Assembly (NCBI GenBank): GCA_937904325.1
Contig: CALGTK010000375.1
Location: 55,034 to 119,033, forward strand
Length of the DNA stretch: 64,000 bases
Direction: 5' to 3'
From: an uncultured Planctomyces sp.
GTDB lineage: Bacteria > Planctomycetota > Planctomycetia > Planctomycetales > Planctomycetaceae
Shown: positions 1,082-60,549 of the stretch, piece by piece
Layout: each line of letters begins with the position of its first letter
Numbering within the stretch: position 1 is the stretch's first letter
Notes under the pieces: model-generated
Databases searched by the model: none
Told to the model about the DNA's origin: nothing
What the model saw: only the letters and a program-made list of their open reading frames with translations
Program-made: the position numbers and the translations under genes

Positions 1082-2230
1082 TCACACATGCTGAAGGAGC
1101 ATCTCGCGGAATTGGCCGAAGAGGTAGTGGCTGTCGTGAGGACCGGCTGAAGCTTCGGGATGATACTGCACGGCGAATGCGGGGTAATCTTTGTGCCGGA
1201 TTCCTTCGACCGTTTGATCGTTAAGGCTCACGTGAGTCACCTCAACGTTCGATGGCATTGAGTCTGCTTCCAGAGCGAAACCGTGATTCTGCGACGTGAT
1301 CTCGACTTTACCCGTGCTCTTATTGAGGACCGGCTGGTTGGCTCCACGGTGCCCGAATCGCATTTTGAAAATTTCAGCGCCGCACGCGAGGCCGAGCAGT
1401 TGGTTGCCGAGGCAGATTCCAAAGATCGGAGTCTTGCCAAGCAGTCCCTGAATCGTCTTGATGGCGTACTCCAGCGGGCGAGGATCGCCAGGACCGTTCG
1501 AGAGAAACACGCCAGCAGGCGAGAGTTCCAGAATTTGCTCAGCGCTCCAGGTGCCTGGCACAACGGTGACTTTGCAGCCGAGTTGCTTCAGGTGCCGCGG
1601 GATGTTCCACTTCATGCCGTAGTCAATGGCGACGACATGCGGGCCTTCACCAGTTGTCGCCTCGTGGATTCCATCGTAACCGCCGGTCACGGGGTCTCGA
1701 ATGATCTCGTTCAGGCCTTCTGACCAGCTAGCGCTTCCTGCAGGGATGACCTCACTGACAAGGTCCTGCCCGGCCAGTTCTGGACTTTTTTTAGCTTTAG
1801 CGATCAAGGAGTCGTTGTCGAGGTCCTCGGTCGAGATGATGCCGGTCATCACTCCCTGAATTCGGATTCGCCTGACGAGCGATCGTGTATCGAGACCATC
1901 GATTCCAATCACGCCGTGTTTTGCCAGATAGCTGTCGAGCGATTCGTCCGATCGAAAATTGCTTTCGTGGCGGCAGAGTTCTTTGACGATGAATCCTCGC
2001 AGCGAAAGTCCGCCGCTTTCGACATCCTCGAGATTGACTCCGTAATTACCGATCAGCGGGTACGTCATGGTGACGATCTGGCCGCAGTAAGACGGATCAG
2101 TGAGGATTTCCTGGTAGCCGGTCATGCTGGTGTTGAACACGACTTCGCCGTGGATTTCACCAGAAGCACCAAAGGCTCGGCCTTCAAAGACCGAACCGTC
2201 AACCAGAGCAAGTTTCGCCGGACGACTCAT
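1082..2230 (-). CDS. carA: Carbamoyl-phosphate synthase small subunit (start trimmed to MSRPAKL; the track ORF extends to 2389)
   Basis: Class I glutamine amidotransferase motifs GVFLSNGPGDP, PIFGICLGNQLL, AVQYHPEASAGPHD; N-terminal LALVDGSVFEGRAFG. Confidence 0.95.
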   Translation of the reverse strand: MSRPAKLALVDGSVFEGRAFGASGEIHGEVVFNTSMTGYQEILTDPSYCGQIVTMTYPLIGNYGVNLEDVESGGLSLRGFIVKELCRHESNFRSDESLDSYLAKHGVIGIDGLDTRSLVRRIRIQGVMTGIISTEDLDNDSLIAKAKKSPELAGQDLVSEVIPAGSASWSEGLNEIIRDPVTGGYDGIHEATTGEGPHVVAIDYGMKWNIPRHLKQLGCKVTVVPGTWSAEQILELSPAGVFLSNGPGDPRPLEYAIKTIQGLLGKTPIFGICLGNQLLGLACGAEIFKMRFGHRGANQPVLNKSTGKVEITSQNHGFALEADSMPSNVEVTHVSLNDQTVEGIRHKDYPAFAVQYHPEASAGPHDSHYLFGQFREMLLQHV

Positions 2231-2401
2231 GCGTATGCACCGTGAGCGTGAGAACGAATATTGAACGCAGGGAAGTCCCTGCAGAATGCGAGCGCATGCT
2301 CGCGAGGCGGGGGCGACTTCTATCAAAGTGCGGCGCAAAATAGAAGAGACCGCCGGATTGAGCGGTCTCTGGAATGGCTCGTTGAGCACGGGATGCTATG
2401 C

Positions 2402-2875
2402 TCATTCCGTACTGCTGGTTTCGTCCTGCCGGAGCACAAAATCACTGAATCTCAGCGACTCGCCGGTTTCGGCCGTCATATTGGCAAACAGCTCGCCCAT
2501 GATCCGATGAAAGTGTTCACGGCGTACGGAGTAAAAGTTGTGTTTGCCATCGCGCCGAGCTTCGATCAGGCCGGCGACTCGTAAGAGTGCGAGGTGGTGA
2601 CTGACCGCCGGCTGGCTCTGGTCGAGACGTTCGCAAAGGGCCGTAACATGCAACTCGCCTTCGCGCATCAAGTACATCAAAACTCGTAGACGAGTCTCGT
2701 CCGACAACAGTTTGAACGTCTGGACGAGATCCTGTTCGAGCTGATCTGGAAGGCCGGTTGACGCCACGCGACGGCTGTCATCGACTTCGTTAGTGCTGCT
2801 GATCATGTCATACTCGGTTTCTGCTTCGCCAATCGGCTGATCGCCGAAGTTCGCTGTGCCATCATTATCAGTCAA
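2402..2875 (-). CDS. ArsR-family winged-helix transcriptional regulator
   Basis: LLSDETRLRVLMYLMREGELHVTALCERLDQSQPAVSHHLALLRVAGLIEARRDGKHNFYSV is a classic ArsR HTH. Confidence 0.9.
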   Translation of the reverse strand: MTDNDGTANFGDQPIGEAETEYDMISSTNEVDDSRRVASTGLPDQLEQDLVQTFKLLSDETRLRVLMYLMREGELHVTALCERLDQSQPAVSHHLALLRVAGLIEARRDGKHNFYSVRREHFHRIMGELFANMTAETGESLRFSDFVLRQDETSSTE

Positions 2876-3270
2876 CGCATAACCTCAGTGTTCGCAACCG
2901 CCTGGTAGACCAAATCGCCAGCCAGCCGATGAGATAACGCGATGCTTCCGGAGCGGTTAAACAAGCCGGACGCCCGCAGATCTACGATAGAAACTGTAAA
3001 ATCGACGAATCAGCCATAATTAAATTGAAGAATTGTCCAACATCGGCACTGACGACAATGTCCAGCAACGTAAAGAATGGCGCAACCTGAACCCTATCAA
3101 CGACTTTGATTGCTGACGAAACGTCATTCGAAATGCTGGATGACCTGACTACGGATGTGAGTTGCACAGAACGTGCGTCGATTAGGTCATCGAGAAAAGA
3201 TTCGATGATTATGGACGGACCAAATTGCCCCGTCAATCAGTGGACTGGGATTTTCAACAAGGTTCGGCGA

Positions 3271-4749
3271 TTAGCTTGCCGGCTCCTGTTTCGCCTTCGA
3301 GGCTGCTGGGCTCTGAAGTGGAGCGAGCGTTTCCGCACTGTCGACTCGAATCTGGCGACGGTCTTCCAGCTTGACGGCTCCTTCGACATGACCGGACGCG
3401 GTCAATGAACTGGAATTTTCAATCGGTTGGGTCAGCCTCAGGCTGACCGGCACATTTTCCTCACAATCATTCATGCGTCGGATGTCTGCACCGAGAGAAT
3501 TCAGCCGATTTTCGAACTGCTCGTATCCCCGGTCGAGGTGATAGATTCGGCGAATCACCGATTCTCCATCGGCGGCCATCGCCGCAAGGACGAGTGCCGC
3601 ACTTGCCCGAAGATCGCAAGCCATCACACAAGCGCCGTGCAATTTTTCAGTTCCGTTGATAATCGCACTTTGGCCTTCACGGTGAATACTCGCGCCGAGC
3701 CGAACGAGTTCGGCAACATGCATGAATCGATCGGGGAAGACTTTGTCGGTCACCACACTGATTCCATCCGCTCGGCTGAGCAACGCCATAAATTGAGCCT
3801 GCACGTCTGTCGGCAGGCCCGGATACGGTAACGCTGAGCATTCGGTCGAAGTCAGTTTTCCCGACGGAAGGACGTGCAGTGTGCTGCGGTCTGAGCTTCC
3901 AGGATCTTCGGTGATTCCAATACGGACTCCGACATCTTTCAGTTTGTCCAGCACCGCGCTAAGATGATCGATGCAGACATTTTCGACGCTGACTTCGCCA
4001 TGTGTGATCGCTCCGGCAATGAGCAGTGTCGCTGCTTCGATGCGATCTGGAATGACGTGATGTTCGGCACCCGCCAACGACTCCACGCCTTCGATTTGCA
4101 GGAACGGCGTACCGAGCCCTTCGATCTTCGCGCCCATCGCATTAAGCAGCTGCCCATAATCGGCAACTTCGGGTTCGCACGCCGCTGACTCGATCGTTGT
4201 AACGCCGTCGGCCAACGCCGCTGCAGCCATCACGTTGCAGGTTCCTGTGACGGTGCTACCGAACGAGCCGCCAAGAAAGACTCGTGCGCCCTTCAGCTTC
4301 CTGGCTGTCGCGATGACATAGCCATGTTCAATTCGAATATCGGCTCCCAGAGCCTTCAGACCTTTCAGATGCAGATCGATCGGCCGGTCGCCGATGTTGC
4401 AGCCGCCTGGCAATGAAACGGTCGCTCTTCCTCGCCGAGTGAGCAACGGCCCAAGTACGCAAATGCTGGCACGCATGCGGCGGACAAGTTCGTAGTCTGC
4501 GACAACGGGCGAGTCGTCGATTACTTCCAGGCGAAGTGCGTTGTCAGCCTGTCGTTCACTGATGACGCCGAGCGTACCGAGAAGCTGCGACAAAGTTCGG
4601 ACATCAACGAGGTCGGGGACGTCGTGCAGCGTGATCGGCCCGTCAGCCATCAGCGAGGCAGCCATGATCGGCAGGGCCGCGTTCTTGGCCCCACTGACTC
4701 GAACTTGCCCCTTCAACGGCTTCCCGCCCCGCACAACAAACATGTCCAT
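3271..4749 (-). CDS. murA: UDP-N-acetylglucosamine 1-carboxyvinyltransferase
   Basis: [26 protein letters not shown], catalytic-loop [19 protein letters not shown], full length; extra C-terminal tail of about 60 aa. Confidence 0.95.
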
Positions 4750-4841
4750 CCCTGGACCTCCTCAATCGTCAGTAGTCGTAGGGTGCGTCTCGACGCACCA
4801 TTCTGGTCGATGATAGCTCGGAACCCACCGACCGATAACCG

Positions 4842-5747
4842 TCAGCTCATCAGTCTCTTCCTTGCCCAGACGATTCGCGAATGACCTCCGAGATCCTTCA
4901 CAATCTGAGCAGGCTCGAATCCACCTGAATCAGCAAAGAGTTGAGTAACCGCGGCACTTTGCTGTTCACCAATCTCCAGCAGCAACGCTCCGCTGTTCGC
5001 CAGCCACGGGCCACTTTCCGCAATCAGTCGCCTGACGATGTCCAGGCCGTCGACTCCGCCTCGTAACGCAAGTTGCGGCTCGTGCAGGCGAACGTCGAGC
5101 TGCAGTGTATCCATTTCCTCATCCGTCACATACGGCGGATTCGCGGTAATAACTTCGAACAAAGCGTCGCTGGAAAGCGGACTGAACAGGTCGCCCTGCA
5201 GCAACGAAATCCTGCCCGTCAGACCGTTTTTCTGGATGTTTCGCTGGGCAACCTGGTGGACTTGATCGTCCAGTTCAATGGCTGTCAGGGTGGCGGATTC
5301 ACAGTTCGAAGCAATGGCGACCGGTACGCAGCCGGTCCCCGTGCAGACGTCCAGGACGGTTGCTGCCGGGAGTTCATTGAGAATTTCCAGAGCGGTTACA
5401 ACTAGAGTTTCCGTGTCCGGCCGCGGGATCAGTACGCCAGGTTCTACCTCGAAATCCAGCCCAAAGAATTCACGAAAACCAACGAGGTAAGCAACCGGCT
5501 CCAAAGTTGCGCGGCGTCTGACAAGATCGCGCATCACGGCGCGTTCATCGGGCTCCAGCGGAGTGTCGTACTGAGTGTAGAGCTGAATTCGCTGACAACC
5601 TCGGGCGTGCGCCAACAGAATCTCAGCGTCAAGTCTGGGTGACTCGCTGCCGTGCTGCTTCAAATGCCCGATCGTCCAGTCCAGGACTTTCTTAACGGTC
5701 CAGACTTCTTCGGCATCGGCAGTTTTGGGAGTCCCTTCGCTGCTCAC
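4842..5747 (-). CDS. prmC: Peptide chain release factor N5-glutamine methyltransferase
   Basis: VLDVCTGTGCVPVAIA SAM motif and ANPPYVTDEEM (NPPY); adjacent to prfA. Confidence 0.93.
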   Translation of the reverse strand: MSSEGTPKTADAEEVWTVKKVLDWTIGHLKQHGSESPRLDAEILLAHARGCQRIQLYTQYDTPLEPDERAVMRDLVRRRATLEPVAYLVGFREFFGLDFEVEPGVLIPRPDTETLVVTALEILNELPAATVLDVCTGTGCVPVAIASNCESATLTAIELDDQVHQVAQRNIQKNGLTGRISLLQGDLFSPLSSDALFEVITANPPYVTDEEMDTLQLDVRLHEPQLALRGGVDGLDIVRRLIAESGPWLANSGALLLEIGEQQSAAVTQLFADSGGFEPAQIVKDLGGHSRIVWARKRLMS

Positions 5748-5774
5748 TGGGTATTCCGTTTTCGAGGCAGCAGT

Positions 5775-6845
5775 CTAGGTGACGCCGCCCTTGAGGCGTT
5801 CCATCCGGTCAAACTCGAGCAGGGCGTCGACAAGCTCATCAATATTGCCCTGCAGAATCTGATCCAGCTTGTGGACGGAAAGATTGATGCGGTGATCAGT
5901 GATCCGGTTCTGTGGAAAGTTGTAGGTGCGAATTCGCTGACTTCGATCTCCTGACCCGACCAGCGTGCGACGATGCTCTGCCCGCGCGTTGGCAGCTTCC
6001 ATTTCTTTTTGTTCGAGGAGTCGGCTTCGCAGAACCCGCATCGCCTTTGCTCGGTTCTTGTGCTGACTCTTCTCGTCCTGAATCTTCACGACGATTCCGG
6101 TTGGAATGTGTGTGATGCGGACGGCGCTTTCCACTTTGTTGACCTTTTGTCCGCCGGGACCGCCAGCACGCATTGTATCAATCTGCAGGTCTTCGTTGTC
6201 GATTTCGATCTCGACTTCAGTTGCCTCAGCCATCACGGCGACTGTCGCGGCACTGGTGTGAACTCGGCCCTGGGCTTCCGTTTCAGGAACTCGTTGGACG
6301 CGATGCCCACCACTTTCGAACTGCAGGCGATGAAAGCAGCCTTCGCCTGAGATCGACAGAACCAGTTCCTTCAGACCGCCAAGTTCCGAAGCGTTCATTT
6401 CGATAATTTCGAACTTCCAGCCCTGGAGTTCGAGATATCGCCTATACATCTCGAAAAGATCGCGAGCGAAAAGAGCGGCTTCGTCGCCGCCAGCTCCAGC
6501 TCGGATTTCCATGATGCAACTTCCACGAGTCAGCGAATCACCGGACAGAACGATGTCTTCCAGTTCTTCCCGCATGGCTTCGTACTGAGCGGTCAGGTTA
6601 GCCAGTTCTTCGCGAGCGTACTCGCGCGCCGCAGACTCTGTTTCTTCCTGAAACATTTCCTTGGCAGTTTCGCAGTCTTCTTCGAGCTGATTGAACGCTC
6701 GCGTTCGCAGAGCAACCTTCGAAAGCCCACCATATTCCCGCTGGATATCCAGCAGTTTATGGGTGTCCGCAAGAACTTCGGGATCCTGCAATTGCTGCTC
6801 AAGCTCTTCGTAGCGTTTGAGCTTTTCCTGCAGACTGGGGAACAT
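5775..6845 (-). CDS. prfA: Peptide chain release factor 1
   Basis: [19 protein letters not shown] (GGQ), [24 protein letters not shown]; adjacent prmC. Confidence 0.94.
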
Positions 6846-7097
6846 CGAAACTGATCCTTAATCAACGGGGGCAGCGGATTTCAAAACCGAATGCGACGTA
6901 ATTTGAGTGTCGGGTTCGGTTTGTTTTCGGTGAAAATTCCCCGTTCGCATGCAAAGCTCTGCAAGCATGCCGCCCAGGCCCAACCGCGCAGCAAGCAAAC
7001 TTGCTGCAAACGTCCCAGACAAGAGGTAACAGCGACTTCACGGCACTGCCCAATGCAGAAGAGCACCCCGTGAGGAATTCGTCTGTCACCCCGAAAG

Positions 7098-7313
7098 CTA
7101 GCTTTTCTTCCGCTCGGCCCAGTTGTACTTCTTCTGGAACTTTTCAACTCGACCGGCACTGTCGATGTACTTCATCGTTCCCGTGTAGAACGGGTGACAG
7201 GCGGAGCAGATATCAATCTGAAGTTTCTCGACAGTGCTTCGAGTTTGAAAAGTGTTGCCGCAGCTGCACTTAACTTCAGTTTCGTGGTAATCCGGGTGAA
7301 TGTCTTGCTTCAT
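7098..7313 (-). CDS. rpmE: Ribosomal protein bL31 (start [11 protein letters not shown]; the track ORF extends to 7370)
   Basis: [27 protein letters not shown]...[28 protein letters not shown]. Confidence 0.95.
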
Positions 7314-7475
7314 GACGCTACCTGAGTGCAAATCCGAATATGGGGTTTGTTGATCACCTGTTGGGATCAACTTGAGTTTCGCCGCAAATCCACCATCGTG
7401 GATCGGGCCGAAAGCAAGCCGAGCAGTCTATGGACGACTCCTCGAAACAGCAAGTGCGCCACTATTTGCTCGCCA

Positions 7476-8087
7476 TTAAGCTTTGCTCTGAAGCGAAGAA
7501 TTACCGGTCGTCACGGTTGGAGCGGCATCCGGCTGAGACTCGTTGGCAAGATTGTTCGCCGGCTCAGCTCGAAATGACTGAATTGCGAGCATGATCGCAC
7601 CAGTGACGAGGAAACAGTCCGCTGCGTTAAAAATAGGATAGTGGTACGTCCCAAACGTGAACGCAAGGAAGTCTCGGACTCCGTAAATGGCTGATCCATC
7701 GGGCCTTACGCAGCCGTGCAGGCCAAGTCTGTCATATAGATTGCCCAGTGTCCCGGCCATGATCAGACCAAGACAGGTCGTTAACCACAAGCTGTTTGCG
7801 GCTCTATAAACAAACAGCCAGATTAAGACGCCGGCGACCGCACCAATGCTTAACAACGCGAACAGCCAGGTATATCCCTGGCCCATGCCCCACAAAGCTC
7901 CCTCGTTGATGCTCGTCAGGAAGCAGGCCGAACCCCAGTCGCCAAAGAACCCATAAGTCCAATCGCTTCGGCCGCCTGGGTAATTGAGTCTTCCAAAGAC
8001 TACCGACTTCGACCCAAGGTCGATCACCAGGCCAACGATACTGAGCAGGAAAAACCAGACGTAGCGATTTTGGGGAACTGGTGTCAT
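7476..8087 (-). CDS. lspA: Lipoprotein signal peptidase (signal peptidase II)
   Basis: Catalytic motifs GTLGNLYDRL and YPIFNAADCFLVTG; multiple TM segments. Confidence 0.88.
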   Translation of the reverse strand: MTPVPQNRYVWFFLLSIVGLVIDLGSKSVVFGRLNYPGGRSDWTYGFFGDWGSACFLTSINEGALWGMGQGYTWLFALLSIGAVAGVLIWLFVYRAANSLWLTTCLGLIMAGTLGNLYDRLGLHGCVRPDGSAIYGVRDFLAFTFGTYHYPIFNAADCFLVTGAIMLAIQSFRAEPANNLANESQPDAAPTVTTGNSSLQSKA

Positions 8088-8473
8088 GTGTATTGAGCTT
8101 CGTGTTTCCGTTCACACTCGACGCAATTTCGAGTCCACGGAAGTGCCTTCAGGCGGGTCTTGGGAATCAGAGCTTTACGCCCCGTTTTGCCCTCTTCAGT
8201 GCACCCCTTGCAAAGGCCGAATGTCTCGTCTTCGATTCGCTTCAGGGCTGAAGATATTTCCTTCAGAGTTTCCTGTTCGTTGTGAATCAGGTCGAGAGCA
8301 AAATCCTGCTCGTAGTTGTCCGAGCCAAGTTCAGCAGGGTGAGTCGGAGTTCGAGACTCTTCTTCACGACCAAATGCGCCGTCGGTAATGTTGTCAACAT
8401 CGCCTCGTAATCGGCCAGAAAGTGACAATAGTCGGTTCCGAAACTGGACGAGTTCGGTCTTGGACAAGGCCAT
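8084..8473 (-). CDS. DksA/TraR family zinc-finger protein
   Basis: CKGCTEEGKTGRKALIPKTRLKALPWTRNCVECE zinc finger; coiled-coil N-terminus; 4-nt overlap with lspA. Confidence 0.88.
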   Translation of the reverse strand: MALSKTELVQFRNRLLSLSGRLRGDVDNITDGAFGREEESRTPTHPAELGSDNYEQDFALDLIHNEQETLKEISSALKRIEDETFGLCKGCTEEGKTGRKALIPKTRLKALPWTRNCVECERKHEAQYT

Positions 8474-8791
8474 GGGAAGTCATTCTCTGTTGCGAACTTT
8501 CCAGAGGGTTCCACCTCACAAAATGTCCATTCAAGCCGGCTGCCGTCCTGGCCACCTGAAATGTGATGGTCTGCAGTATTGCCGGGTTTTCTCGCTCGTT
8601 CAAGCAGGGGAGACCACGAACGGAGCTAACACCTAGTTTGACACTTCGCTGTAAGATTATTTTTCAGAACGAGTTACGTGAATTGATGACTGACTGACAA
8701 AGATCGGCATCGGTGGATGCAGGTCTCGATGACTTCATGAGTTAGAGCAAGTTTTGTTTACTTCTGACTGGACGATCCAATCCAGGTTAAT

Positions 8792-9103
8792 TCAGCCGGT
8801 TTCTTCTTCGTCAGAGGCTTTGGTCATGGTGAAGAATAACAGTGCGGCTTCCAGCGATCCGAAGAGTAATTGATCGTCGAATCCTGATGAATTACCGGGT
8901 CGACCCGAAAGCCCTTTGCCCAGATCCTGCCGGCACAGTTTCGCCTGCAACCGGTCGCCGGGCATGGAATCTGCGACATCTATCTGCACGAACTTCAGGT
9001 GAAGCTGGCGTCTGAAACAGGATGCAACGTTGTCGCCGCAGACGCTCAGCGACGCTTGTCGAGCTTTGGGACTGACTCGAGTTTTGCTACGAACGAGATT
9101 CAT
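8792..9103 (-). CDS. Hypothetical protein, doubtful
   Basis: 103-aa ORF whose ATG overlaps the upstream TGA (ATGA); no recognised motif. Confidence 0.25.
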   Translation of the reverse strand: MNLVRSKTRVSPKARQASLSVCGDNVASCFRRQLHLKFVQIDVADSMPGDRLQAKLCRQDLGKGLSGRPGNSSGFDDQLLFGSLEAALLFFTMTKASDEEETG

Positions 9104-10476
9104 CTTTTGTTTAACAGAGTTTTAACTGCTCCCATCAGGACGCCTTCCACTTCCGGGGCAACGCGCGATGCTCTCTCGCTCGATTCGTAGCCACCCTGGC
9201 TGTAAGCGATTTCGGTGCCAATGTAGCCGGGTGAGTAATCTCCGTAAGCTGCCATCGCTACGAAAAGATCCGGACGAAGTTTCTGAGCGGCAAGCTGATA
9301 CTCGACGAACAGCTCGCCTGGCATGTGCAGGACCCTTGAGTTCCTCAACGTCAGGCACGAGATATCGATCGTTTCCAGATTGTTGCAGCGACGCAGCCAG
9401 AGCAAATGCTTGGCAGCAAACCACCGATCCGCTGGTTTCGCGTCTTTGTTGTGTAGAGTTTTTAACAAGGTCGACTCGACCAGGTGAGAAGCGACCGGCA
9501 GCGAAACCGGTGCCGTCGACCACGCAACGTCGGCTGCGGTGATGGGCGATTTCTTCGTCGCGTTCCAGGCGTCTACCATGCCGACTGCGACTTTGTCGGC
9601 GAGTACCTGACGATTCTCTTTCGAACCGTCGTTCCACTTTCCAGCTCCGATGTTGCCACCGGCTCCGTTGAAGTGGATGTGCGGAACCTTCGTCGCTGTC
9701 TGTCGTGAATTTCTGGCGAGCCCTGGGAAGTCGGGACTGGCCATACCGGTTCGGTAATAACTTTGCGGATGGCACGCGTAGTAACTCAGAGCGGCCAGTG
9801 CCTTGTCGCCGTTCCAGAATGAAACCATCTTCAATTGCGAATCGATTGTACCGGCCGGCATTGCTCGCAGCTTTTCGTCACGCGTTGCCGTCCACCGAGT
9901 AAATTTCACCTTGCCGTCTTCTCCGAGAATTCGCCGGTTCGAGGCAACGTCTTTCACCGTCCCAAAACCAAGACCGAGATGGGTGATTGCCCTGGCGTTA
10001 TCGATCGATTTTCTGATTGCGGCCGCTGCCCGACGAACCACATCTCTGGCGAAAGCGTCGTCGAATCCTGCGTTTTCAAGGCCGACGTTACGAAGCAGTT
10101 CTTCCACGGCGAAGTCGCAGCGGGGGGCATCGTGCTGGTGCAGAGTGTGAACCGCGACACGTCCTGGCGTCGTTCCTGCGGCTTTGGCGAAGCTTTCTTT
10201 AAAAACGACCTGCCCGCCGGTTCCGATTCCAATCCAGTCGACGGCACAAAGCACGATCGGCTTGCCTGATCCGATCAGAACAACACCGCGACAACTCAGT
10301 GGATTTTGTACTCCGATCGATGGGTCGTAAGCCAGAGCCGTTCCGACTGGTGGCGAGGCATCGACGTCAAACGTTGCCAGTTTCAAGTCCGCCTGGCTCG
10401 TTGAAGTGAATGCTCCCACAAGAAGGAACAACGCCGCAGCGATAGCAATTCGTCGCATCTCGGAGTCTCCACGCAA
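9100..10476 (-). CDS. Neutral/alkaline non-lysosomal ceramidase-like exported protein
   Basis: Signal peptide, FDVDASPPVGTALAYDP, HTLHQHDAPRCDF, YYACHPQSYYRTGMASPDFPG, FNGAGGNIGAGKWN. Confidence 0.75.
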   Translation of the reverse strand: MRGDSEMRRIAIAAALFLLVGAFTSTSQADLKLATFDVDASPPVGTALAYDPSIGVQNPLSCRGVVLIGSGKPIVLCAVDWIGIGTGGQVVFKESFAKAAGTTPGRVAVHTLHQHDAPRCDFAVEELLRNVGLENAGFDDAFARDVVRRAAAAIRKSIDNARAITHLGLGFGTVKDVASNRRILGEDGKVKFTRWTATRDEKLRAMPAGTIDSQLKMVSFWNGDKALAALSYYACHPQSYYRTGMASPDFPGLARNSRQTATKVPHIHFNGAGGNIGAGKWNDGSKENRQVLADKVAVGMVDAWNATKKSPITAADVAWSTAPVSLPVASHLVESTLLKTLHNKDAKPADRWFAAKHLLWLRRCNNLETIDISCLTLRNSRVLHMPGELFVEYQLAAQKLRPDLFVAMAAYGDYSPGYIGTEIAYSQGGYESSERASRVAPEVEGVLMGAVKTLLNKR

Positions 10477-43844: not shown

Positions 43845-46301
43845 ATGGATATGCCTGCGTTTCGGTCCTTCCGTTCACTGCTGGCTTTTGCACTCGTGAT
43901 GTCAGCCAGCACGTTGTTCGCCGCTTCTCCGCGACTGACGATCATTCTGCCCCGAGGTGCTCAGCGAGGTAAAGACACCGAACTGACCTTCAGTGGTCGA
44001 CTGCTTGCCGACGTTGAAGAGATCATGTTCTACGAATCAGGCTTCTCGGTGAAAGAGTTCAAGCCGGTCAACGCGAACTCCTTTAAAGCTGTGATCAGTG
44101 TTTCTGCGGACGCTCGTCTGGGTGAACAGGTCTGCCAGGTTCGAACGAAGACAGGCATATCCGATTTCCGAACATTCTTCGTGGGTTACCTGCCGGACGT
44201 GGTTGAAAAAGAGCCGAACAGCGACTTCGCTACGCCGCAAGTCGTCCCCATCAACTCTACCGTTAACGGAGTCGCCGCTTCTGAAGACGTCGACTATTAC
44301 GTCGTCGAGGCGAAAAAGGGGGATCGTATTGCGGCCGAAGTTGAGGCTATCCGGCTTGGTACCACTCTGTTCGATCCGTACGTCGCAATTCTCGACGCCA
44401 AACGATTCGAACTTGCGTCAGCTGACGACTCTCCGCTTCTCGTTCAGGATTGCGTCGTTTCGGCGATAGCCCCGGACGACGGGAAATATACAATCGAAGT
44501 CCGTGAAAGTTCCTACGGTGGCAACGGCAACTGTCGCTACCGTGTTCACATCGGCAACTTCCCGCGCCCAACCGCCGTCTACCCGGCAGGTGGAAAGATC
44601 GGTGAAGAAGTCGAACTGAGATTCATCGGCGACGCCGGTGGCGACTTCGCTCAGAAGTTCACACTGCCCAACGAAGTCATCCCTGAGTACGGTGTGTTCG
44701 CCGGTAAGGAAGGAAGCTGGTCACCGAGTTGGAACACATTCCGACTCTCGGATGTTGGCAACTCGCTGGAAGTCGAACCGAACAACGACCGAGCAACAGC
44801 AACTCCCTCTGATTTTCCGTCAGCCTTTAACGGCATTCTTCAGGAAACCGGAGATCAGGACTTCTTCAAGTTCACCGCGAAGAAGGGGCAACAGTTTGAA
44901 GTCGAGTGCTACGGTCGCCGGATCCGTTCTGCGATTGACCCGGTAATGTATCTCTACAATGCAACAGGTGGGCGCGTTGCATCAAACGATGACTCACGCG
45001 GGCCAGACAGTTACTTCAGATTCAACGTGCCGGCGGATGGCGAATACACGCTACTCATTCGAGATCATTTAATGCGCGGCGGACCGGCTTACGTTTACCG
45101 AGTCGAATTTCAGCCAATCAAGCCCGGTCTCACACTGAGCATCGCGCGGACCGAACGGTACGGACAGTATCGACAGCAGATTTTCGTTGGGCGAGGCAAT
45201 CGATTTGGAACAAACATTAATCTCGCTCGTCGCAACTTTGGCGGTGAACTGGTCCTTGCACCAAAAGAACTTCCAGCCGGAATTACGATGCACCACGACC
45301 AGGTGCCGGCAAATATGAGTGTCATGCCGGTCGTGTTTGAAGCGGCAGCGGATGCTCCACTTACCGGCGGACTGTACGATTTTGTGGCTCACCACGCTGA
45401 GAACCCGGAAATCAATGGTGGGTTCTCAAACAAGTCGGACTTTGTCTATGGAGCCCCGGGACAATCCCTGTACTACACAAAGACCATGCACCGTATGCCG
45501 ATCGCTGTGGTTGACGAAATCCCGTTCAAGCTTGATATCATCGTTCCGAAAGTTCCTATCGCTCGCAATGGATCAATGAATGTGAAAATTGTTGCCACCA
45601 AGCAAGATGGCTGGGACGAAACCATTACCGTTCAATTTCCGTTCCGACCGCCAGGGCTCGGAGCCAGAAGTTCAATTCAGATACCTAAGGGCAAGACTGA
45701 GGCTCTCTATCCGATCAATGCAAGCGGCAGCGCTGCCATCGGCATATGGAAGGTCTTCGCTATTGGTTGGGGAGCCGTCGATGGAGGTAACGCGTTCGCC
45801 TCATCTTCACTTACTCCACTCGAAATTTCCGAGCCATACGTCACTTTTGCCATGAGTCGTAGTGCTTGCGACCAGGGGCAGGAAACGGAAATCGTCTGCA
45901 CGTTGACGCAAACCAAGGAGTTCCCGGGTGAAGCTGTCGCCAAAATCTACGGGTTGCCGAATAAGGCTGTTACGGGCCCGATGAACTTCACCAAGGATAC
46001 GAAGGAAGTCATCTTCAAAGTGACTACTGACGCTACGACACCAGCGGGACGTCATAAAAGTGTCTTTGGCCAAATCACGATCACGATGAACGGTGAGCCG
46101 ATCGTCCATAACGTTGGCACAACCGAACTTCGAATCGACAAGCCGCTGCCACCAAAGGTTGAACCAAAGCCGACACCCAAACCAGCGACTGTCGCAGTGG
46201 TAAAGCCGGCACCGAAGCCGGTTGCGAAACCACCGCGACGGCTGACTCGACTGGAAATGCTGCGTCTTGAAAAGGCGAAAGCCGCCGCCGCCGGTAAATA
46301 A
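43845..46301 (+). CDS. Exported protein with pre-peptidase C-terminal (PPC)-like domains
   Basis: Signal peptide; two PPC-like segments (EPNSDFATPQVVPINSTVNGVAASEDVDYYVVEAKKGDRIAAEVEA; EPNNDRATATPSDFPSAFNGILQETGDQDFFKFTAKKGQQFEVECYG); Pro/Lys-rich C-terminal tail. Confidence 0.82.
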   Translation: MDMPAFRSFRSLLAFALVMSASTLFAASPRLTIILPRGAQRGKDTELTFSGRLLADVEEIMFYESGFSVKEFKPVNANSFKAVISVSADARLGEQVCQVRTKTGISDFRTFFVGYLPDVVEKEPNSDFATPQVVPINSTVNGVAASEDVDYYVVEAKKGDRIAAEVEAIRLGTTLFDPYVAILDAKRFELASADDSPLLVQDCVVSAIAPDDGKYTIEVRESSYGGNGNCRYRVHIGNFPRPTAVYPAGGKIGEEVELRFIGDAGGDFAQKFTLPNEVIPEYGVFAGKEGSWSPSWNTFRLSDVGNSLEVEPNNDRATATPSDFPSAFNGILQETGDQDFFKFTAKKGQQFEVECYGRRIRSAIDPVMYLYNATGGRVASNDDSRGPDSYFRFNVPADGEYTLLIRDHLMRGGPAYVYRVEFQPIKPGLTLSIARTERYGQYRQQIFVGRGNRFGTNINLARRNFGGELVLAPKELPAGITMHHDQVPANMSVMPVVFEAAADAPLTGGLYDFVAHHAENPEINGGFSNKSDFVYGAPGQSLYYTKTMHRMPIAVVDEIPFKLDIIVPKVPIARNGSMNVKIVATKQDGWDETITVQFPFRPPGLGARSSIQIPKGKTEALYPINASGSAAIGIWKVFAIGWGAVDGGNAFASSSLTPLEISEPYVTFAMSRSACDQGQETEIVCTLTQTKEFPGEAVAKIYGLPNKAVTGPMNFTKDTKEVIFKVTTDATTPAGRHKSVFGQITITMNGEPIVHNVGTTELRIDKPLPPKVEPKPTPKPATVAVVKPAPKPVAKPPRRLTRLEMLRLEKAKAAAAGK

Positions 46302-46408: not shown

Positions 46409-48841
46409 ATGTTTCGTTCCCGACTGTGGACCGTTGCTATTGCGTTCATCGCTTCACTGAATTCGCTCACGACGGATGCTCAGGAAAAGCCAATTTCTCT
46501 TGAGGTCTATCCTGGCGAGGTACACATCAACACGATGCGTGACCGACAGTCATTCGTCGTGCAGGTCGCCTATCCAAACGGCTTGACGCGCGACGTGACC
46601 AAAGAGGCAAAATTCACGCTGAGCGATGCTGCGAAAGTTAAGCTGGAGGGAAATGTCCTTCACCCGGTCTCAGATGGCGATAGCCAAATGGCGGTCGAAT
46701 TCGGGGGCCTTTCTAAGATGATCCCGATCAAAATCGAACAGGCGACCGCTGACCGTGATGTCAGTTTCAAGCTGGACATCATGCCGATATTCATGAAATC
46801 CAACTGTAACACTGGTAGCTGTCATGGTGCTGCTCGAGGAAAAGATGGTTTTCGCCTCTCTTTGTTCGGTTTTGATCCAGCCGGCGATCAGTTTCGAATT
46901 GCCCGCGAATTGCCCGGCCGCCGAATCAATCTGGCGTTGCCCGAAGAAAGTCTGCTCATGACCAAGTCTGTTGGCTCGGTACCACACACAGGCGGCAAGC
47001 GGTTTGGGACCGACAGCGAGTACTACGCGACTATGCTCCGGTGGTTGAAAGCGGGCGGAAACAATGATCAGGGCGAAGTCCCCAAGGTACTTACTGTGGA
47101 GCTATACCCACCAGCTGCAGTCCTTGACGGTGCAGGGACCACTCAGCAATTGACTGTCCGAGCAAAATACTCAGACGGAACTGACCGCGATGTTACAAAC
47201 CTCGCAGTGTTTCTTTCAAACAACGACACGTCCGCAACTGTCTCGCCCGACGGCCTGGTCACCGCTCACGAGCGGGGCGAAGCCTTCATTATGGCTCGCT
47301 TTGAAACTCACACCGTCGGTCGACAGTTCATTATGTTGCCCAAGGGGCAGCAGTACACGGACCCGAAAACGCCAGAGTTCAACTTCGTGGACAACCTCGT
47401 CTACAACAAGCTGAGGAAACTCAGAATCCTGCCTTCCGGTGTCTGCACGGATGAGGAATTCCTGCGACGGGCAAGCCTCGACATCGTCGGAGTTCTGCCC
47501 ACGATGGAAGAGTACGTTCGATTCATGGAAGACAAAGACGAGAAAAAGCGAGTCAAGCTTGTCGATGAACTACTGAACCGCAAAGAATTCGTTGAAGTCT
47601 GGGTGATGAAATGGGCGGAACTGCTCCAAATTCGAACCACAAACCAGATCAGTTACAAGTCGATGCTGCGTTACTACAACTGGCTTCAGGAACGGATCGC
47701 CAGCAACATGCCGACCGACCAGATGGTTCGTGAATTGCTTGGCTCCAGCGGTGGGACATTTCAAAACGCGGCAACGAACTACTATCAGAATGAACGCGAT
47801 ACCTTGAAAACATCGGAGAATGTAGCTCAGGTCTTCATGGGTATGAGAATTCAGTGTGCCCAGTGCCACAATCATCCGTTTGACCGTTGGACAATGGACG
47901 ATTACTACAGTTTCGCCGCATTCTTCTCACAGATCGGTCGAAAGCGTGGCGAAGACCCACGTGAATTGATTATCTACAACAGCGGTAGCGGCGACGTCCG
48001 ACACCTTGTTGGCAACAAGGTGATGGCTCCGAAGTTCCTTGGTGGAGAAGTGCCCGATGTCAAAGGCAAAGACCGACGAGTCGTGATGGCAGACTGGCTT
48101 GCATCGCCACAGAATCCATATTTTGCGACCAATCTTGGCAACATCGTTTGGGCACACTTCTTTGGCAAAGGCATCATCGATCAGGTCGACGACGTTCGAG
48201 TATCCAACCCACCGGTCAACAAAGAATTGCTTGACGAACTGGGGCGACGTTTCACTGAATACAACTACGATTTCAAGAAACTCGTTCGTGACATTTGCAC
48301 GTCGCGTGTTTATCAGCACTCAACCGCCACTAACGAAACAAACGTCAAAGATTCTCGAAACTTTTCACACGCGGCTCTTCGCCGGGTTCGAGCGGAAGTT
48401 CTGCTGGACGCGATCACGCAGGTCACCGATACGAAGAACAAGTTCCAGGGATTACCGACTGGAGCTCGAGCGGTTCAGATTGCAAATGGAAATACATCGA
48501 CATACTTCCTGACGGCATTCGGGCGAGCCAAACGGGAAACAGTCTGTTCTTGCGAAGTCTCCATTGAACCGAATCTCTCACAAGCTCTTCACCTGCTGAA
48601 TGGTGACACCGTGAATACGAAAATGGCACAGGGGAAACTCGTGCCAACTCGACTGACGGAAGGTAAGACACCGGAACAGATCGCCGAAGAAATCTACATC
48701 CGCTGCCTTAGTCGAAAGCCAACGGAGCGAGAAGCAGCTGCTCTGAAAGAGGTCGTCGACAATGAGCAGAACAAACAGCAGGCTCTGGAAGATATTTTTT
48801 GGGCCACGCTGAACTCCCGCGAGTTTGTGTTTAACCATTGA
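46409..48841 (+). CDS. DUF1549/DUF1553 protein with Ig-like (Big2) and cytochrome-like heme-binding domains
   Basis: CNTGSCHG (46805-46825), CAQCHNHPFDRW CxxCH (47855-47869), Ig-like LTVRAKYSDGTDRDVTNLAVFLSNNDTSATVSPDGLVTA, EEFLRRASLDIVGVLPT. Confidence 0.92.
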   Translation: MFRSRLWTVAIAFIASLNSLTTDAQEKPISLEVYPGEVHINTMRDRQSFVVQVAYPNGLTRDVTKEAKFTLSDAAKVKLEGNVLHPVSDGDSQMAVEFGGLSKMIPIKIEQATADRDVSFKLDIMPIFMKSNCNTGSCHGAARGKDGFRLSLFGFDPAGDQFRIARELPGRRINLALPEESLLMTKSVGSVPHTGGKRFGTDSEYYATMLRWLKAGGNNDQGEVPKVLTVELYPPAAVLDGAGTTQQLTVRAKYSDGTDRDVTNLAVFLSNNDTSATVSPDGLVTAHERGEAFIMARFETHTVGRQFIMLPKGQQYTDPKTPEFNFVDNLVYNKLRKLRILPSGVCTDEEFLRRASLDIVGVLPTMEEYVRFMEDKDEKKRVKLVDELLNRKEFVEVWVMKWAELLQIRTTNQISYKSMLRYYNWLQERIASNMPTDQMVRELLGSSGGTFQNAATNYYQNERDTLKTSENVAQVFMGMRIQCAQCHNHPFDRWTMDDYYSFAAFFSQIGRKRGEDPRELIIYNSGSGDVRHLVGNKVMAPKFLGGEVPDVKGKDRRVVMADWLASPQNPYFATNLGNIVWAHFFGKGIIDQVDDVRVSNPPVNKELLDELGRRFTEYNYDFKKLVRDICTSRVYQHSTATNETNVKDSRNFSHAALRRVRAEVLLDAITQVTDTKNKFQGLPTGARAVQIANGNTSTYFLTAFGRAKRETVCSCEVSIEPNLSQALHLLNGDTVNTKMAQGKLVPTRLTEGKTPEQIAEEIYIRCLSRKPTEREAAALKEVVDNEQNKQQALEDIFWATLNSREFVFNH

Positions 48842-49072: not shown

Positions 49073-51769
49073 ATGCTTCATTTTCGACTGGCTTTGACTG
49101 CATGCATCCTGTTTGTGACAACAGCATCCACCCGGGCTGCAGATGAGAAAATCACCTACGTTGACCACGTTCAGCCGATTTTCCGCGCCAAGTGCTTCGC
49201 TTGTCATAACCCGGACAAGAAGAGCGGCGGACTCGATCTGACAAACTACACCGCCATGAAAGAGGGTGGCAGCTCTGGTGACGTCGTCGAAGCCGGTGAT
49301 GTGGACAGCAGTTATTTGTGGCTCCTGGTCAATCACGAATCTGAGCCATACATGCCTCCCAAGGCTGACAAGCTGCCGGCCGAAATGCTAGACGTGATTA
49401 AGGCTTGGATCGTCGGCGGAGCACTCGACACGAAAAGCAGTAAGGCAGTTGTTCGTCCAAAAGCAAAGATGGAATTTGCATTGTCGTTTGGCTCGACTGG
49501 ACGACCGGACGGCCCGCCCCCATTGCCGACGCGGCTTTCACTGCAGCCGGTCGTACATACCGAGCGGAGCACCGCGGTTAACTCTATTGCCACCAGTCCG
49601 TGGGCAACGCTCGTTGCAGTTTCAGGCCAGAAACAAATTCTGCTTTACAATACGCAGACGCTGGAACTCGCTGGAACGTTGCCATTCCCGGAAGGCGAAC
49701 CACATGTTCTTCAATTCAGCCGAAGCGGTCACCTGTTACTCGCTGGCGGTGGTCAGGGTGCAACAGCCGGCCGGGTTGTGGTGTTCAACGTAAAAAATGG
49801 TGAACGCATCTTCGAAATAGGTGACGAGCTCGACGCTGTCATGGGGGCGGACATCAGCTCGGATCACAAGTACATTGCACTCGGTGGTCCACAAAAGGTC
49901 GTACGTGTCTATTCGACGGAAACCAGCGAAGTCGTTTACGAAGTTCGGAAACACACTGACTGGGTAAGTGCCGTGTCGTTCAGTCCGGATGGCGTGTTGC
50001 TGGCAACAGGTGACCGAAATGGTGGCGTATTCGTTTGGGAAGCAGACACAGGCCGGGAATACCTTGGTCTGAAGGGCCATTCGAAACGGATCAGCGGCTT
50101 TTCGTGGCGAGCGGATTCAAACCTTCTTGCATCGGCCAGTGAAGATGCTTCCGTCCGATTGTGGGAAATGGAAAACGGTAAACAGATCAAGAGTTGGGGC
50201 GCTCACGGTGGAGGGACGGCATCTGTCGACTTCACTCGAGATGGAGAAATCGTCACCGCCGGACGGGACAAGACCGTCAAGCTGTGGAAGGGAGATGGAG
50301 CCGCGATCCGTACCTTTGAAGCATTCGCCGATCTCGCGCTGGCAACGGCGTATTGTGACGAAACAAAGCGAGTGGTCGGTGGAGACTGGACGGGACTCGT
50401 CCGTGTCTGGAACGCTGCAGATGGCAAGCGACTTGGTGAACTATCAACCAACCCCATTACGCTTGAATCTCGACTGGCGCTAGCACAGGCAGATGTGGGT
50501 AAAGTCGTAGCGGATCAAAAGACCAAGCAAGCGGCTTACACTGCCGCACAGGCGAAAGTAACTGCTGCAACCGCTCAGCTGGCAGCAGGTCAGAAGAAAC
50601 TGGCGGAGGCTACCACTCTGGAAAAGACCCTCACTGCAAAGCTGGTAGTCGATCAAAAAACTGCCGCCGACGCGAAGGTCAAGTTGGATGTATCCGCGAA
50701 AGTAGTTGCAACCTTGCAGCCACTCGTTCCATTACTGAAGGAAGCTGTTGCGAAAGCCGATCTGGCTGTTGCGAAAGCCGCCGGAGATCCGGATGTCGTC
50801 AAAGCTGCTGCCCAGTTGAAAGCGGTGGCAGTTTCTCGCGATGGCTCATTTGTGGCCGCAACCAGAACGGTTGCAGAAGAAACGGCAAAAATGAACACAG
50901 CAACTGCTGCCGTTGCAGCTGGCACGAAGGCGATTGCTGCAACGAAGACGGTCATCGCTGCCACTCAGAAAGCGGTCACACAATATACAGCATCCCTGGA
51001 CGCCGAGCAGAAGAACGCCACAGCATCAAAGGCTGCTCTTGACTCAGCAAACGCTGCAGCCGCAAAAGCTCAGCAGGCGGTGACTCGATGGCAGAACGAG
51101 ATTCAGTTTACCGCCAAGCTGGTCGCGCTAAACGAACGTCAGCAGAAGTTTGGCGAACTTGAACTCGCGTTTCTGGAGGCCGAAGCTGAGCTGAAGGAAA
51201 TGCAAAACAAAGTTTCACTGGCGCAGGCGGCCGTGTCTGCTGCACAGAAGACTGAGAAGACATCAACGGACATAGTGGTTGCGATAAAGCAAAAGCTTGC
51301 TCAGGTCACGGTAGATAAGCAGACGCAGGCGGCGCAGGTTGCTGTTCGCGAAAAAGCTGTTCCAATGCTGCAGGATGCGGTCTCTAAAGGTGCAGCAGCC
51401 GTAGCAGCACTACCTGCTGACAAAGAGCTGGCTGCCGCTGCCGGTCAGTTGAAGGCGGCGTTCGACCGCAACAATGCGACAATCGCTCAGGTTAAAACGA
51501 AAGTCGCCGAGTTGGACAAATCATTGGCGGTCATTCAGAAGGATGTCACAGCGGCTCAGCAGAAAGCTGTTGGGGCGAAAGCTGTCGTCGCGGAAGCAAC
51601 GAAGAAGTACCAGGCCGAGCAGGCAGCCACTGCTCCGGTTCAAGCCCGAACAACGACGGCCAAACAGGCATTTGAGCAAGCCCGCGCTTCGCTTGATCAG
51701 TTGAAGCAGGAAGTGGATGGTTTGCGTCAGCAGGCCAGCACAGGAGCAGCTGGCCCGGCTCAAGGGTGA
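49073..51769 (+). CDS. Exported c-type cytochrome-like domain + WD40 repeats + long Ala/Lys-rich coiled coil
   Basis: RAKCFACHNPDKKSGGLDL; WD40 blades (VSFSPDGVLLATGDRNGGVFVWEADTGREY, FSWRADSNLLASASEDASVRLWEMENGKQ); about 435-aa Ala/Lys/Gln coiled coil from about 50451. Confidence 0.9.
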   Translation: MLHFRLALTACILFVTTASTRAADEKITYVDHVQPIFRAKCFACHNPDKKSGGLDLTNYTAMKEGGSSGDVVEAGDVDSSYLWLLVNHESEPYMPPKADKLPAEMLDVIKAWIVGGALDTKSSKAVVRPKAKMEFALSFGSTGRPDGPPPLPTRLSLQPVVHTERSTAVNSIATSPWATLVAVSGQKQILLYNTQTLELAGTLPFPEGEPHVLQFSRSGHLLLAGGGQGATAGRVVVFNVKNGERIFEIGDELDAVMGADISSDHKYIALGGPQKVVRVYSTETSEVVYEVRKHTDWVSAVSFSPDGVLLATGDRNGGVFVWEADTGREYLGLKGHSKRISGFSWRADSNLLASASEDASVRLWEMENGKQIKSWGAHGGGTASVDFTRDGEIVTAGRDKTVKLWKGDGAAIRTFEAFADLALATAYCDETKRVVGGDWTGLVRVWNAADGKRLGELSTNPITLESRLALAQADVGKVVADQKTKQAAYTAAQAKVTAATAQLAAGQKKLAEATTLEKTLTAKLVVDQKTAADAKVKLDVSAKVVATLQPLVPLLKEAVAKADLAVAKAAGDPDVVKAAAQLKAVAVSRDGSFVAATRTVAEETAKMNTATAAVAAGTKAIAATKTVIAATQKAVTQYTASLDAEQKNATASKAALDSANAAAAKAQQAVTRWQNEIQFTAKLVALNERQQKFGELELAFLEAEAELKEMQNKVSLAQAAVSAAQKTEKTSTDIVVAIKQKLAQVTVDKQTQAAQVAVREKAVPMLQDAVSKGAAAVAALPADKELAAAAGQLKAAFDRNNATIAQVKTKVAELDKSLAVIQKDVTAAQQKAVGAKAVVAEATKKYQAEQAATAPVQARTTTAKQAFEQARASLDQLKQEVDGLRQQASTGAAGPAQG

Positions 51770-57430: not shown

Positions 57431-58756
57431 TTATTCGTGTCGCAGGGCTTCGATGGGGTCCATCAGGGCGGCTCGGCGAGCGGGGTACAAGCCGAACAGG
57501 ATTCCGACGATAACCGAGATTGAGAATGCCACTCCGACTGACCAAGGGGCGACGATCGGCTCCAGGTTTTGGATTGCCAGTGGAAGAGCGGTCCAGACAT
57601 TCGGCAGGAACTGCTTCAACACATACTGGACGCCGAAGACTGCCGGGCCGCACAGGAAACCGAAGGCGACTCCCGTCAGCCCGCCCGTGCCGGTCAGCAC
57701 GACGGTCTCAGCAAGGAACTGAGTGATGATGTCGCTGCGGCGCGCTCCCATTGCTCGTCGCACGCCGATCTCGCGAGTTCGTTCGGTGACCGTTGCCAGC
57801 ATGATATTCATGATACCGATGCCGCCCACCAGGAGTGAAATCCCGGCAATCAGAACGAGCAACACGTTGAACATGGCTCGCAGAACTTCTGCCTGGCGGA
57901 GCAGTTCCTTGGGTACGACAATCGTGTAGTCATCTTCGACGTGGTACTTTTCGAGAAGGATTCGAGCGACGGCTGCGCTTTCTTCGACAGACTCGACGTC
58001 TTCGATCATGAGCGTGATCTGGCTGATCTCGACGAGTTCGCGATCGATACCACCGGAAGGTGAAGTTGTCAGCTCGTCGCCTAACCGCGAGCGAAAGGTC
58101 GTGACGGGGATATAGATATCTCGGTTATATTCCCGTCCGGCGAGGCTGCCACCGATCGATGCGGAAGATTCGCGACTTTCCGTAACGCCAATCACGGTGT
58201 AGAAGTCCTGGTCGATCAACAGTCGTTGACCGATTGGGTTTTTCAGCGGAAACACTTCCGCAGCGACGTCGGCGGCGATAACACAAACAGTGGCGTTGTC
58301 GATCTCGTGCTGCTGCTCAAGAAATTGTCCTTGAGCCATATCGAGATGATTGATTTCGTAATAGTCGGACACGCAACCTACAAGCTGCGTTGCGATGACG
58401 TGACCCTCGTGCCGCACGACGGTCGACAGTTCCCGCATTGGAACTGCTCGTTCAACGGTGGGAATGGTCTCAACGAGACGGTCGTAATCGGCGTCGGTCA
58501 GCCCATAGATCGTGACAAAGATTCGGTCGCCGGTTCCTGACGCAGCGGGCTTGACGCTCTTGATGATGATGTTTCGAGCACCCAGTTGTTCGATCTGTTT
58601 CTGAGCCTGGTCGCTGACACCTTCCCCCAGCGCGACGAGCCAGATGACGGCCATCACGCCGATCAGGATTCCGACCATCGCGAGCGACGATCGTAACGCG
58701 TGCAGAGAAAGACTTTTGATGCCGAGCTTGAGAGTTCGCAGAACGTACGACAGCAC
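57431..58756 (-). CDS. ABC transporter permease (MacB-type FtsX fold)
   Basis: LRSSLAMVGILIGVMAVIWLVALGEG; IGIMNIMLATVTERTREIGVRRAMGARRSDIITQFLAE; GTG start. Confidence 0.93.
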   Translation of the reverse strand: MLSYVLRTLKLGIKSLSLHALRSSLAMVGILIGVMAVIWLVALGEGVSDQAQKQIEQLGARNIIIKSVKPAASGTGDRIFVTIYGLTDADYDRLVETIPTVERAVPMRELSTVVRHEGHVIATQLVGCVSDYYEINHLDMAQGQFLEQQHEIDNATVCVIAADVAAEVFPLKNPIGQRLLIDQDFYTVIGVTESRESSASIGGSLAGREYNRDIYIPVTTFRSRLGDELTTSPSGGIDRELVEISQITLMIEDVESVEESAAVARILLEKYHVEDDYTIVVPKELLRQAEVLRAMFNVLLVLIAGISLLVGGIGIMNIMLATVTERTREIGVRRAMGARRSDIITQFLAETVVLTGTGGLTGVAFGFLCGPAVFGVQYVLKQFLPNVWTALPLAIQNLEPIVAPWSVGVAFSISVIVGILFGLYPARRAALMDPIEALRHE

Positions 58757-60549
58757 TAGCGGGCTCCCGATTCGGGACGACCACTAGCTCCAGAACCGCC
58801 ACCGGATGACGGTCGTTTGGGACGATTTTTCCATTCCGCCGAAGAAACCGCTCCGTCGCCGTCCTTATCGAGTCTATCGATAGCCCCTGGCCAGGTAATC
58901 TCGTCACTCGTCAGTTTTCCATCGCTGTTCTTATCGAGACTGGCGAAACTCGGTGCTTGTCGTGAGCCACCAGAACCTCCGCCGGATTGACCACCGGATG
59001 GTTTGCCGCCACCTGCTGCTGGTGGGGGAGAGCCGCTTGATTCTCCGAATCGACTCTTGACACCCGTCGATTCATCAGCTTCCTCTTCACTCTTTTCTTC
59101 GTTGATCTGCTCGCTCATGACGGCTCGTGGATTCATAAGAATTTCTTCACCTTCGCTGACTCCGTCTTTGACTTCGACGAATTTGTCGTTGCTCAGGCCG
59201 AGAAGTAACTCGCGTTTCTGTGGCCCATCAGGAGTCTTGACATATCCGTAGAACTGATCGCCCTTCACGACGACCGACGAAACAGGCACAGTCAAGACGT
59301 CCACAAGATTTGCAATCAGAATTTCCACTTCGGCCGTCATGCCGGGTCGGAGACCTTCGCAATCGCCTTCGATTCGTACTTCAGCCGGGTACTCTTTGAC
59401 CTTGGCCGAGAAGAATGACTTCGCTTCCGGCTGGTTGGCGATCGAAGTGACAGAACCCTGGAACTCTCGATCCAGTACCTTCAGATAAACACGCTGCCCA
59501 GCGTGAACCTGTTCGACTTTTGATTCATGGACCGGAACTTTGGCCTGCATCTGCGTCAGGTCCGGAAGCTGAATGATTGTCTGACGCTCTCGGACCGGCG
59601 ACCCCTCTTCTATCTGGCTGCTGGAACTTCCGTAGCGACTGCGTTCTGCGAAGTAGACAACCATGCCTGCCTTCGGTGCAAAGATGACGCACTTCGTGAG
59701 CTGCTTCGTGAGTTTGTCAAGCTTCGCTTTTTCAAGCTTCACCGCCGCAACTTCAGATCGAGACAATGCTTCAGCCGCGTCGCGAGTTGCTTCTAAGCCA
59801 CGAGTCGTTTTTTGGCGGGTGAACTTTTCGAGCACGCTCTTCGACGTTTGCGCAAAGTCAAGATCCAGTTTGGATCGTTTTACGGCAAATTCGTCAGCTT
59901 CAACCTGGAGCGGCGTGGCGAATCCTTTTCGAGACATCCGCTGTGTGTGATCCAGGACATTTTGAGCGCTCCGCAGGTTTTCCTGAGCGATCGTGATTAA
60001 CGATTCGACTTCCTGCAGGTCTTTCAGGTAGGTCCCTTCGACATACTCCTGGACGGCGATGTCGGCCGCAGCCGCGTCCTCGGTGGCCTTGATCTGTGCA
60101 GCAAGCGCCTTCTCGTAAACGCCGGTCTGTGCGGCAAGCTGTTCTTCAATGCCCGATGAATCGAGTTCGACAATCTTCTGTTCGGCCACGACCACTGTGC
60201 CGTCATCGATGATCCACAAGATCGTGCTGCCACCAGAAATTTCACACTTCACGTCGACGTTGCTGGCACTTTGCAGCTCGCCATCGTCCGTGACAGTAAC
60301 GACCAGATTCTCGCGACCAACTGTGTGCGTCATCGCCTCGCTGTCTGAAGTTTCGCTGCCAGCATTTATTTGAGACAGCAGACCCGGTCCGAAAAAGTAC
60401 GCTCCGGCCGTGACCAGAATTGCCAGAACGGCAAGGACGACGACGACGGAATTTCCGTTCCGTCGATGATCACTCGCTACGACTGAAGATGTTTTTGAAT
60501 TTGAAGGACGCTGCATTGCAACCTCACCACTAACTTGATGCGAGGTCAC
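58756..60549 (-). CDS. HlyD/MacA-type periplasmic adaptor with C-terminal EF-hand pair
   Basis: N-terminal TM, coiled coil, AGMVVYFAERSRYGSSSSQIEEGSPVRERQTIIQLPDLTQMQAKVPVHESKVEQV; C-terminal DKNSDGKLTSDE and DKDGDGAVSSAE. Confidence 0.9.
   Translation of the reverse strand: MTSHQVSGEVAMQRPSNSKTSSVVASDHRRNGNSVVVVLAVLAILVTAGAYFFGPGLLSQINAGSETSDSEAMTHTVGRENLVVTVTDDGELQSASNVDVKCEISGGSTILWIIDDGTVVVAEQKIVELDSSGIEEQLAAQTGVYEKALAAQIKATEDAAAADIAVQEYVEGTYLKDLQEVESLITIAQENLRSAQNVLDHTQRMSRKGFATPLQVEADEFAVKRSKLDLDFAQTSKSVLEKFTRQKTTRGLEATRDAAEALSRSEVAAVKLEKAKLDKLTKQLTKCVIFAPKAGMVVYFAERSRYGSSSSQIEEGSPVRERQTIIQLPDLTQMQAKVPVHESKVEQVHAGQRVYLKVLDREFQGSVTSIANQPEAKSFFSAKVKEYPAEVRIEGDCEGLRPGMTAEVEILIANLVDVLTVPVSSVVVKGDQFYGYVKTPDGPQKRELLLGLSNDKFVEVKDGVSEGEEILMNPRAVMSEQINEEKSEEEADESTGVKSRFGESSGSPPPAAGGGKPSGGQSGGGSGGSRQAPSFASLDKNSDGKLTSDEITWPGAIDRLDKDGDGAVSSAEWKNRPKRPSSGGGSGASGRPESGAR

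Follow-up and report, generated by a model that had tools for sequence, protein, structure and literature searches.

A planctomycete PSCyt1-WD40 protein with a duplicated coiled-coil tail that probably folds back as hairpins

Within the window, by which we mean the whole 64,000-nucleotide stretch of DNA that was analysed, an ORF at 49073..51769 (+ strand) encodes an 898-aa protein. ORF, Pfam, AlphaFold2 and orthologue data together give it a signal peptide, a PSCyt1 cytochrome c domain, a WD40 propeller and a hairpin coiled-coil tail. Judged by its sequence, the tail is a tandem duplication of a ~211-aa helix-loop-helix unit with an exact offset of 211 residues, and instead of extending as a single straight rod it probably folds back into one or two hairpins.

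Head domains and the coiled-coil tail

The protein begins with a probable Sec-type signal peptide (MLHFRLALTACILFVTTASTRA, followed by ADEK; 49073..49138, + strand), which was read directly off the sequence and not by a predictor, and is apparently exported from the cell. The sequence-only reading had proposed a CxxCH domain at the N-terminus followed by WD40 repeats, and profile searches bore out both. The former is a PSCyt1 (PF07635) cytochrome c domain at residues 41-97 (49193..49363, + strand), scoring 57.4 bits against a curated cutoff of 22 (E 2.2e-15). Its heme motif is C41FACH45 (C41-x-x-C44-H45), and C41, C44, H45 and M94 are kept in at least 90% of 64 relatives. M94, within EPYMPP, is the probable axial Met of a His/Met c-type cytochrome domain, and we infer covalent heme attachment to the predicted PSCyt1 domain. 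The WD40 profile (PF00400) reached 93 bits against a cutoff of 27, with repeats at residues ~165-460. These form a seven-bladed propeller at residues ~172-458 (49586..50446, + strand), where AlphaFold2 places strands from 172 to 458 and the best PDB fold match is 7bie, a 7-bladed propeller (TM 0.92 on the target).

C-terminal to the propeller, from residue 463 onward, lies a tail of 436 aa that is rich in Ala (26%) and Lys (11%). Its start, previously put at about 50451, was found at residue 463 (50459), 8 nt away, and the AlphaFold2 helix runs from 464. The COILS formula, with GCN4 as a positive control (P~1), gave P>0.5 for 51% of tail residues and for 0% of the cytochrome/WD40 core, against 8% +/- 7% (maximum 27%) in 100 shuffles. 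Moreover, when hydrophobic periodicity was taken by window and averaged across all the tails, it peaked at 3.5 residues. Together with the COILS signal far over the shuffles, this upholds the earlier description of the tail as a heptad-compatible coiled coil. The accompanying label of low complexity suits the Ala/Lys-rich composition but misleads, since 16 tails of 425-440 aa align nearly without indels. Over their first 420 columns the only exceptions are L054 (1 column) and L055 (8 columns), seven of the 16 being at 46-100% identity to the window's tail and nine at 22-30%. The tail has a dN/dS of 0.08-0.11 vs about 0.03 for the core; it evolves faster than the core, yet under purifying selection. 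A Pfam search of the tail returned no family above cutoff, including the named coiled-coil domains, and a PDB sequence search with it returned no homologue. We also considered the tail as a domain common to other proteins of the window's genome and rejected this, none matching at E<=1e-5.

Duplication and predicted fold of the tail

Repeat 1 spans residues 463-673 (50459..51091, + strand), ending in the RW of an RWQNEI motif, and repeat 2 spans residues 674-884 (51092..51724, + strand). The tail self-alignment score was 177 vs 96 +/- 9 in block shuffles, and the fixed-offset comparison peaked at 211 residues (6.4 SD); there were also several lower peaks, each a whole number of heptads from it. 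Comparing repeat 1 with repeat 2, HHalign gave 99.8% (E 7.7e-29), compared with 6.5% for a reversed half as control. Moreover, Pro/Gly positions of the tail recur at the 211 offset (90/301, ~107-110/318 and 181/392). A DNA-level tandem repeat was rejected as the source of the tail: the search turned up no more than one small 15-bp array, and the protein duplication is therefore old.

A helix-loop-long helix-loop-helix model was set down from the sequence, and AlphaFold2 later gave the same helices. Helix A (residues 464-568; 50462..50776, + strand) leads through hairpin loop 1 (569-572; 50777..50788, + strand), the site of recurring P/G/D at tail ~107-110, into long helix B (573-779; 50789..51409, + strand), whose 207 aa measure about 31 nm at 1.485 A per residue. 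Hairpin loop 2 (780-783, tail ~318-320; 51410..51421, + strand), again with recurring breakers, then leads into helix C (784-892; 51422..51748, + strand). AlphaFold2 was run on the window protein as a single chain with 9 sequences only (pTM 0.52), and pLDDT dropped to 60-70 in the loops and to less than 50 in some stretches of the cytochrome domain. Its output is secondary structure with no contacts, and the antiparallel packing is what we infer. Four segments can be told apart along the hydrophobic seam, each of nearly constant phase, with phase shifts at the two loops and around residue 674. This midpoint break (~660-700) falls at the duplication joint, and helix B is expected to switch packing partner near residue 674. 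On this model, the first half of B is likely paired in antiparallel fashion with A and the second half with C, giving two hairpins in a bar of ~31 nm. The tips of the bar would be the two loops, and its middle, with the start of A, the RWQNEI motif and the end of C, would sit beside the propeller. For the 278-aa tail of orthologue L044, AlphaFold2 predicted one hairpin whose arms measure 129 and 144 aa. The helix-loop-helix with near-equal arms that marks a fold-back hairpin is thus present in the predictions, and folding back is favoured because of the 211-aa duplication, the loops, the seam phase breaks, the near-equal arms and the two AlphaFold2 models. Of the exported ~435-aa coiled coil previously proposed on the heme/WD40 protein, the conserved coiled coil is supported; the single rod acting as a spacer, which would measure ~65 nm if straight, is not supported in that form. 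AlphaFold2 returned the long helices, but the breaks at 569-572 and 780-783 speak against one continuous rod.

Two other accounts of the tail were weighed. It could be unstructured or loosely helical Ala/Lys-rich filler that drifts by composition bias, as its 26% Ala and 11% Lys and the wide variation of tail length across the class would allow. This is hard to reconcile with a coiled-coil score above that of shuffles, a low dN/dS, a tail length fixed within clades and an exact duplication, and we regard it as very improbable. A stronger competitor, which we nonetheless judge unlikely, is that chains join through the tail in a parallel coiled coil, homodimeric or higher, which would oligomerise the cytochrome and in which the loops would be no more than kinks. 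The heptad signal would suit such an assembly, and the AlphaFold2 runs, being of monomers, leave room for oligomers. However, helix breakers recur at equivalent sites of each repeat, the seam shifts phase at those sites, and arms remain near-equal in tails that differ in length. The almost indel-free alignment is also more natural for arms paired within one chain.

Known proteins offer partial likenesses to folded-back hairpins. The arms of SMC/Rad50-type proteins are likewise long helices that fold back in one chain, and the tail partially matches TIGR02168. Membership of the SMC family was rejected, the match being confined to part of the tail at 28.5 bits vs a 567-bit cutoff with no ATPase head or hinge match; moreover, unlike SMC proteins, the window protein is apparently exported. 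Adaptors of the HlyD/MacA type carry a periplasmic helical hairpin, which the tail may resemble in form and setting; the Pfam search gave no HlyD-family profile match to the tail. Elsewhere in the window (57431-60549), a MacB-like permease gene adjoins an HlyD-type gene, which has weak EF-hand profile matches near its C-terminus.

Operon context and variation among relatives

Four genes run in the same direction here, and the cytochrome-propeller gene comes last. It is preceded by genes for a DUF1501 protein (PF07394; 42410..43708, + strand), whose N-terminal twin arginine (R7 R8) is at least 95% conserved, a PPC-domain protein (43845..46301, + strand), identified by Pfam and locus comparison, and a Big_2/PSCyt2/PSD1 protein (46409..48841, + strand). 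Pfam and conservation define the first and third of these. Conservation in the third protein extends to a pair of heme-type motifs, CX4CH (CNTGSCH, residues 133-139) and CXXCH (483-487), the former a possible non-standard heme site. A divergent redoxin-like gene flanks the operon on one side and a convergent gene, which we take to be TruB, on the other. Inside the operon there was no signal for promoters (2 promoter-like sites vs 1.0 expected) or terminators (4 terminator-like sites vs 4.3 expected). Of about 40 loci, nearly all keep the four-gene order, the exceptions being mostly contig ends; the PSD1 gene lies 3.5 kb off at L067, and at L068 the fourth gene comes directly after the PSD1 gene. 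At E<=1e-110 the core was matched in 125/143 good genomes of the class Planctomycetia, and at E<=1e-75 in 20/110 good genomes sampled over the phylum. The window's genome also holds a second, divergent copy of the four-gene operon (L079; G000:C315:1-18024, 1230-9194; 25-46% identity), and the WD40 protein of that copy lacks a coiled-coil tail.

The PSCyt/PSD clusters of Planctomycetes and Verrucomicrobia (PMC5615132) share the same PSCyt1 and the PSCyt2/PSD1 neighbour and include WD40 among their accessory domains; in the literature searched we found no account of the hairpin tail, of its duplication or of how it varies between lineages. Nothing is known of the function of PSCyt-encoding genes, and a link to carbohydrate metabolism has been tentatively drawn, with sulfatase neighbours in some Verrucomicrobia (PMC5615132). 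DUF1501 genes often adjoin planctomycete WD40 genes, and the survey reporting this (PMC5587647) likewise has a WD40 gene beside DUF1501; it reports the neighbourhood only, and a search by term found no mention of cytochrome in it. The protein family is known; its tail architecture is apparently undescribed.

Tails differ among relatives. Orthologues L087, L090, L093 and L059 each have one unit: the first three align with repeat 1 end to end without offset, and L059 aligns with it from column 46 only. The tails of family f3 (L063 and L071) match repeat 1, but their first arm is longer by 14 residues, or two heptads; the loop nevertheless stays close to the tail's middle. L074, L075 and L077 are practically without a tail. 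A tail hidden by a frameshift was rejected for these three and for L079 and L085, no coiled coil continuing downstream. Absence of the tail in orthologues, which had been named as counting against the earlier proposal, thus concerns a minority only, namely a few orthologues and the tail-less paralogous copy of the same genome. For the short tails of L058, L080, L094, L095, L096 and L104 homology to repeat 1 was not demonstrable, and therefore the tails need not all share one origin. On the core tree the members of the two-unit class group together, with 5 changes vs 19.4 in shuffles. Two one-unit rows fall inside the same poorly resolved clade, so that loss and independent duplication are indistinguishable. 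Tail length is fixed within clades and different between them. The tail is a module, as relatives with a single hairpin or with no tail at all indicate, and the tail-less copies show that some lineages manage without it. Tails longer than the double hairpin, at 509-623 aa, occur in L102 (G134), L065 and L070. The proteins L043, L044, L045, L087, L090, L096 and L104 finish with short peptides that resemble one another (AQASA-S/A-K/R or the like); such an end is found in part of the relatives only and is absent from the window's protein.

Possible role in a redox complex

The best explanation overall, whose chances we put as evenly balanced, is that a cytochrome-propeller protein with a duplicated hairpin tail takes part in a periplasmic multi-heme redox complex with its operon partners. 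The functional side of this is less sure: the protein may be both a scaffold and an electron-carrying subunit of that complex. The redox complex is proposed because of the gene order and the heme motifs, and nothing else. In such a complex the heme would trade electrons with those of the third operon protein, the propeller would dock the partner proteins, and the hairpin arms would hold or space the complex within the envelope. The tail itself would be a variable accessory of 0, 1 or 2 hairpins outside the core activity.

Alternatively, the arms could serve the envelope as a strut or ruler, bridging membranes or wall across a defined distance. This comes near to the earlier suggestion of a spacer or oligomeriser that might span the periplasm or a crateriform cell envelope. 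Apparent export, arms of about 15.5 nm with tail length fixed within clades, and changes of that length between clades would all agree with a strut; we saw no membrane anchor or wall-binding domain in the protein, however, and several lineages have a short tail or none, which leaves this reading rather improbable. A T-shaped periplasmic electron-transfer strut would combine these elements, with a heme/propeller head midway along a ~31-nm double-hairpin bar whose arms, tuned by lineage in length and number, serve as a ruler positioning a multi-heme complex within the planctomycete periplasm, and we offer it as an outside chance. The scaffold of a redox complex remains our preferred reading.

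Planctomycete genes of the PSCyt/PSD/DUF1501 clusters form a large set with no function known so far. A class-wide operon, together with a definable module of 0, 1 or 2 hairpins, offers a concrete handle on the role of these clusters in the unusual planctomycete envelope.
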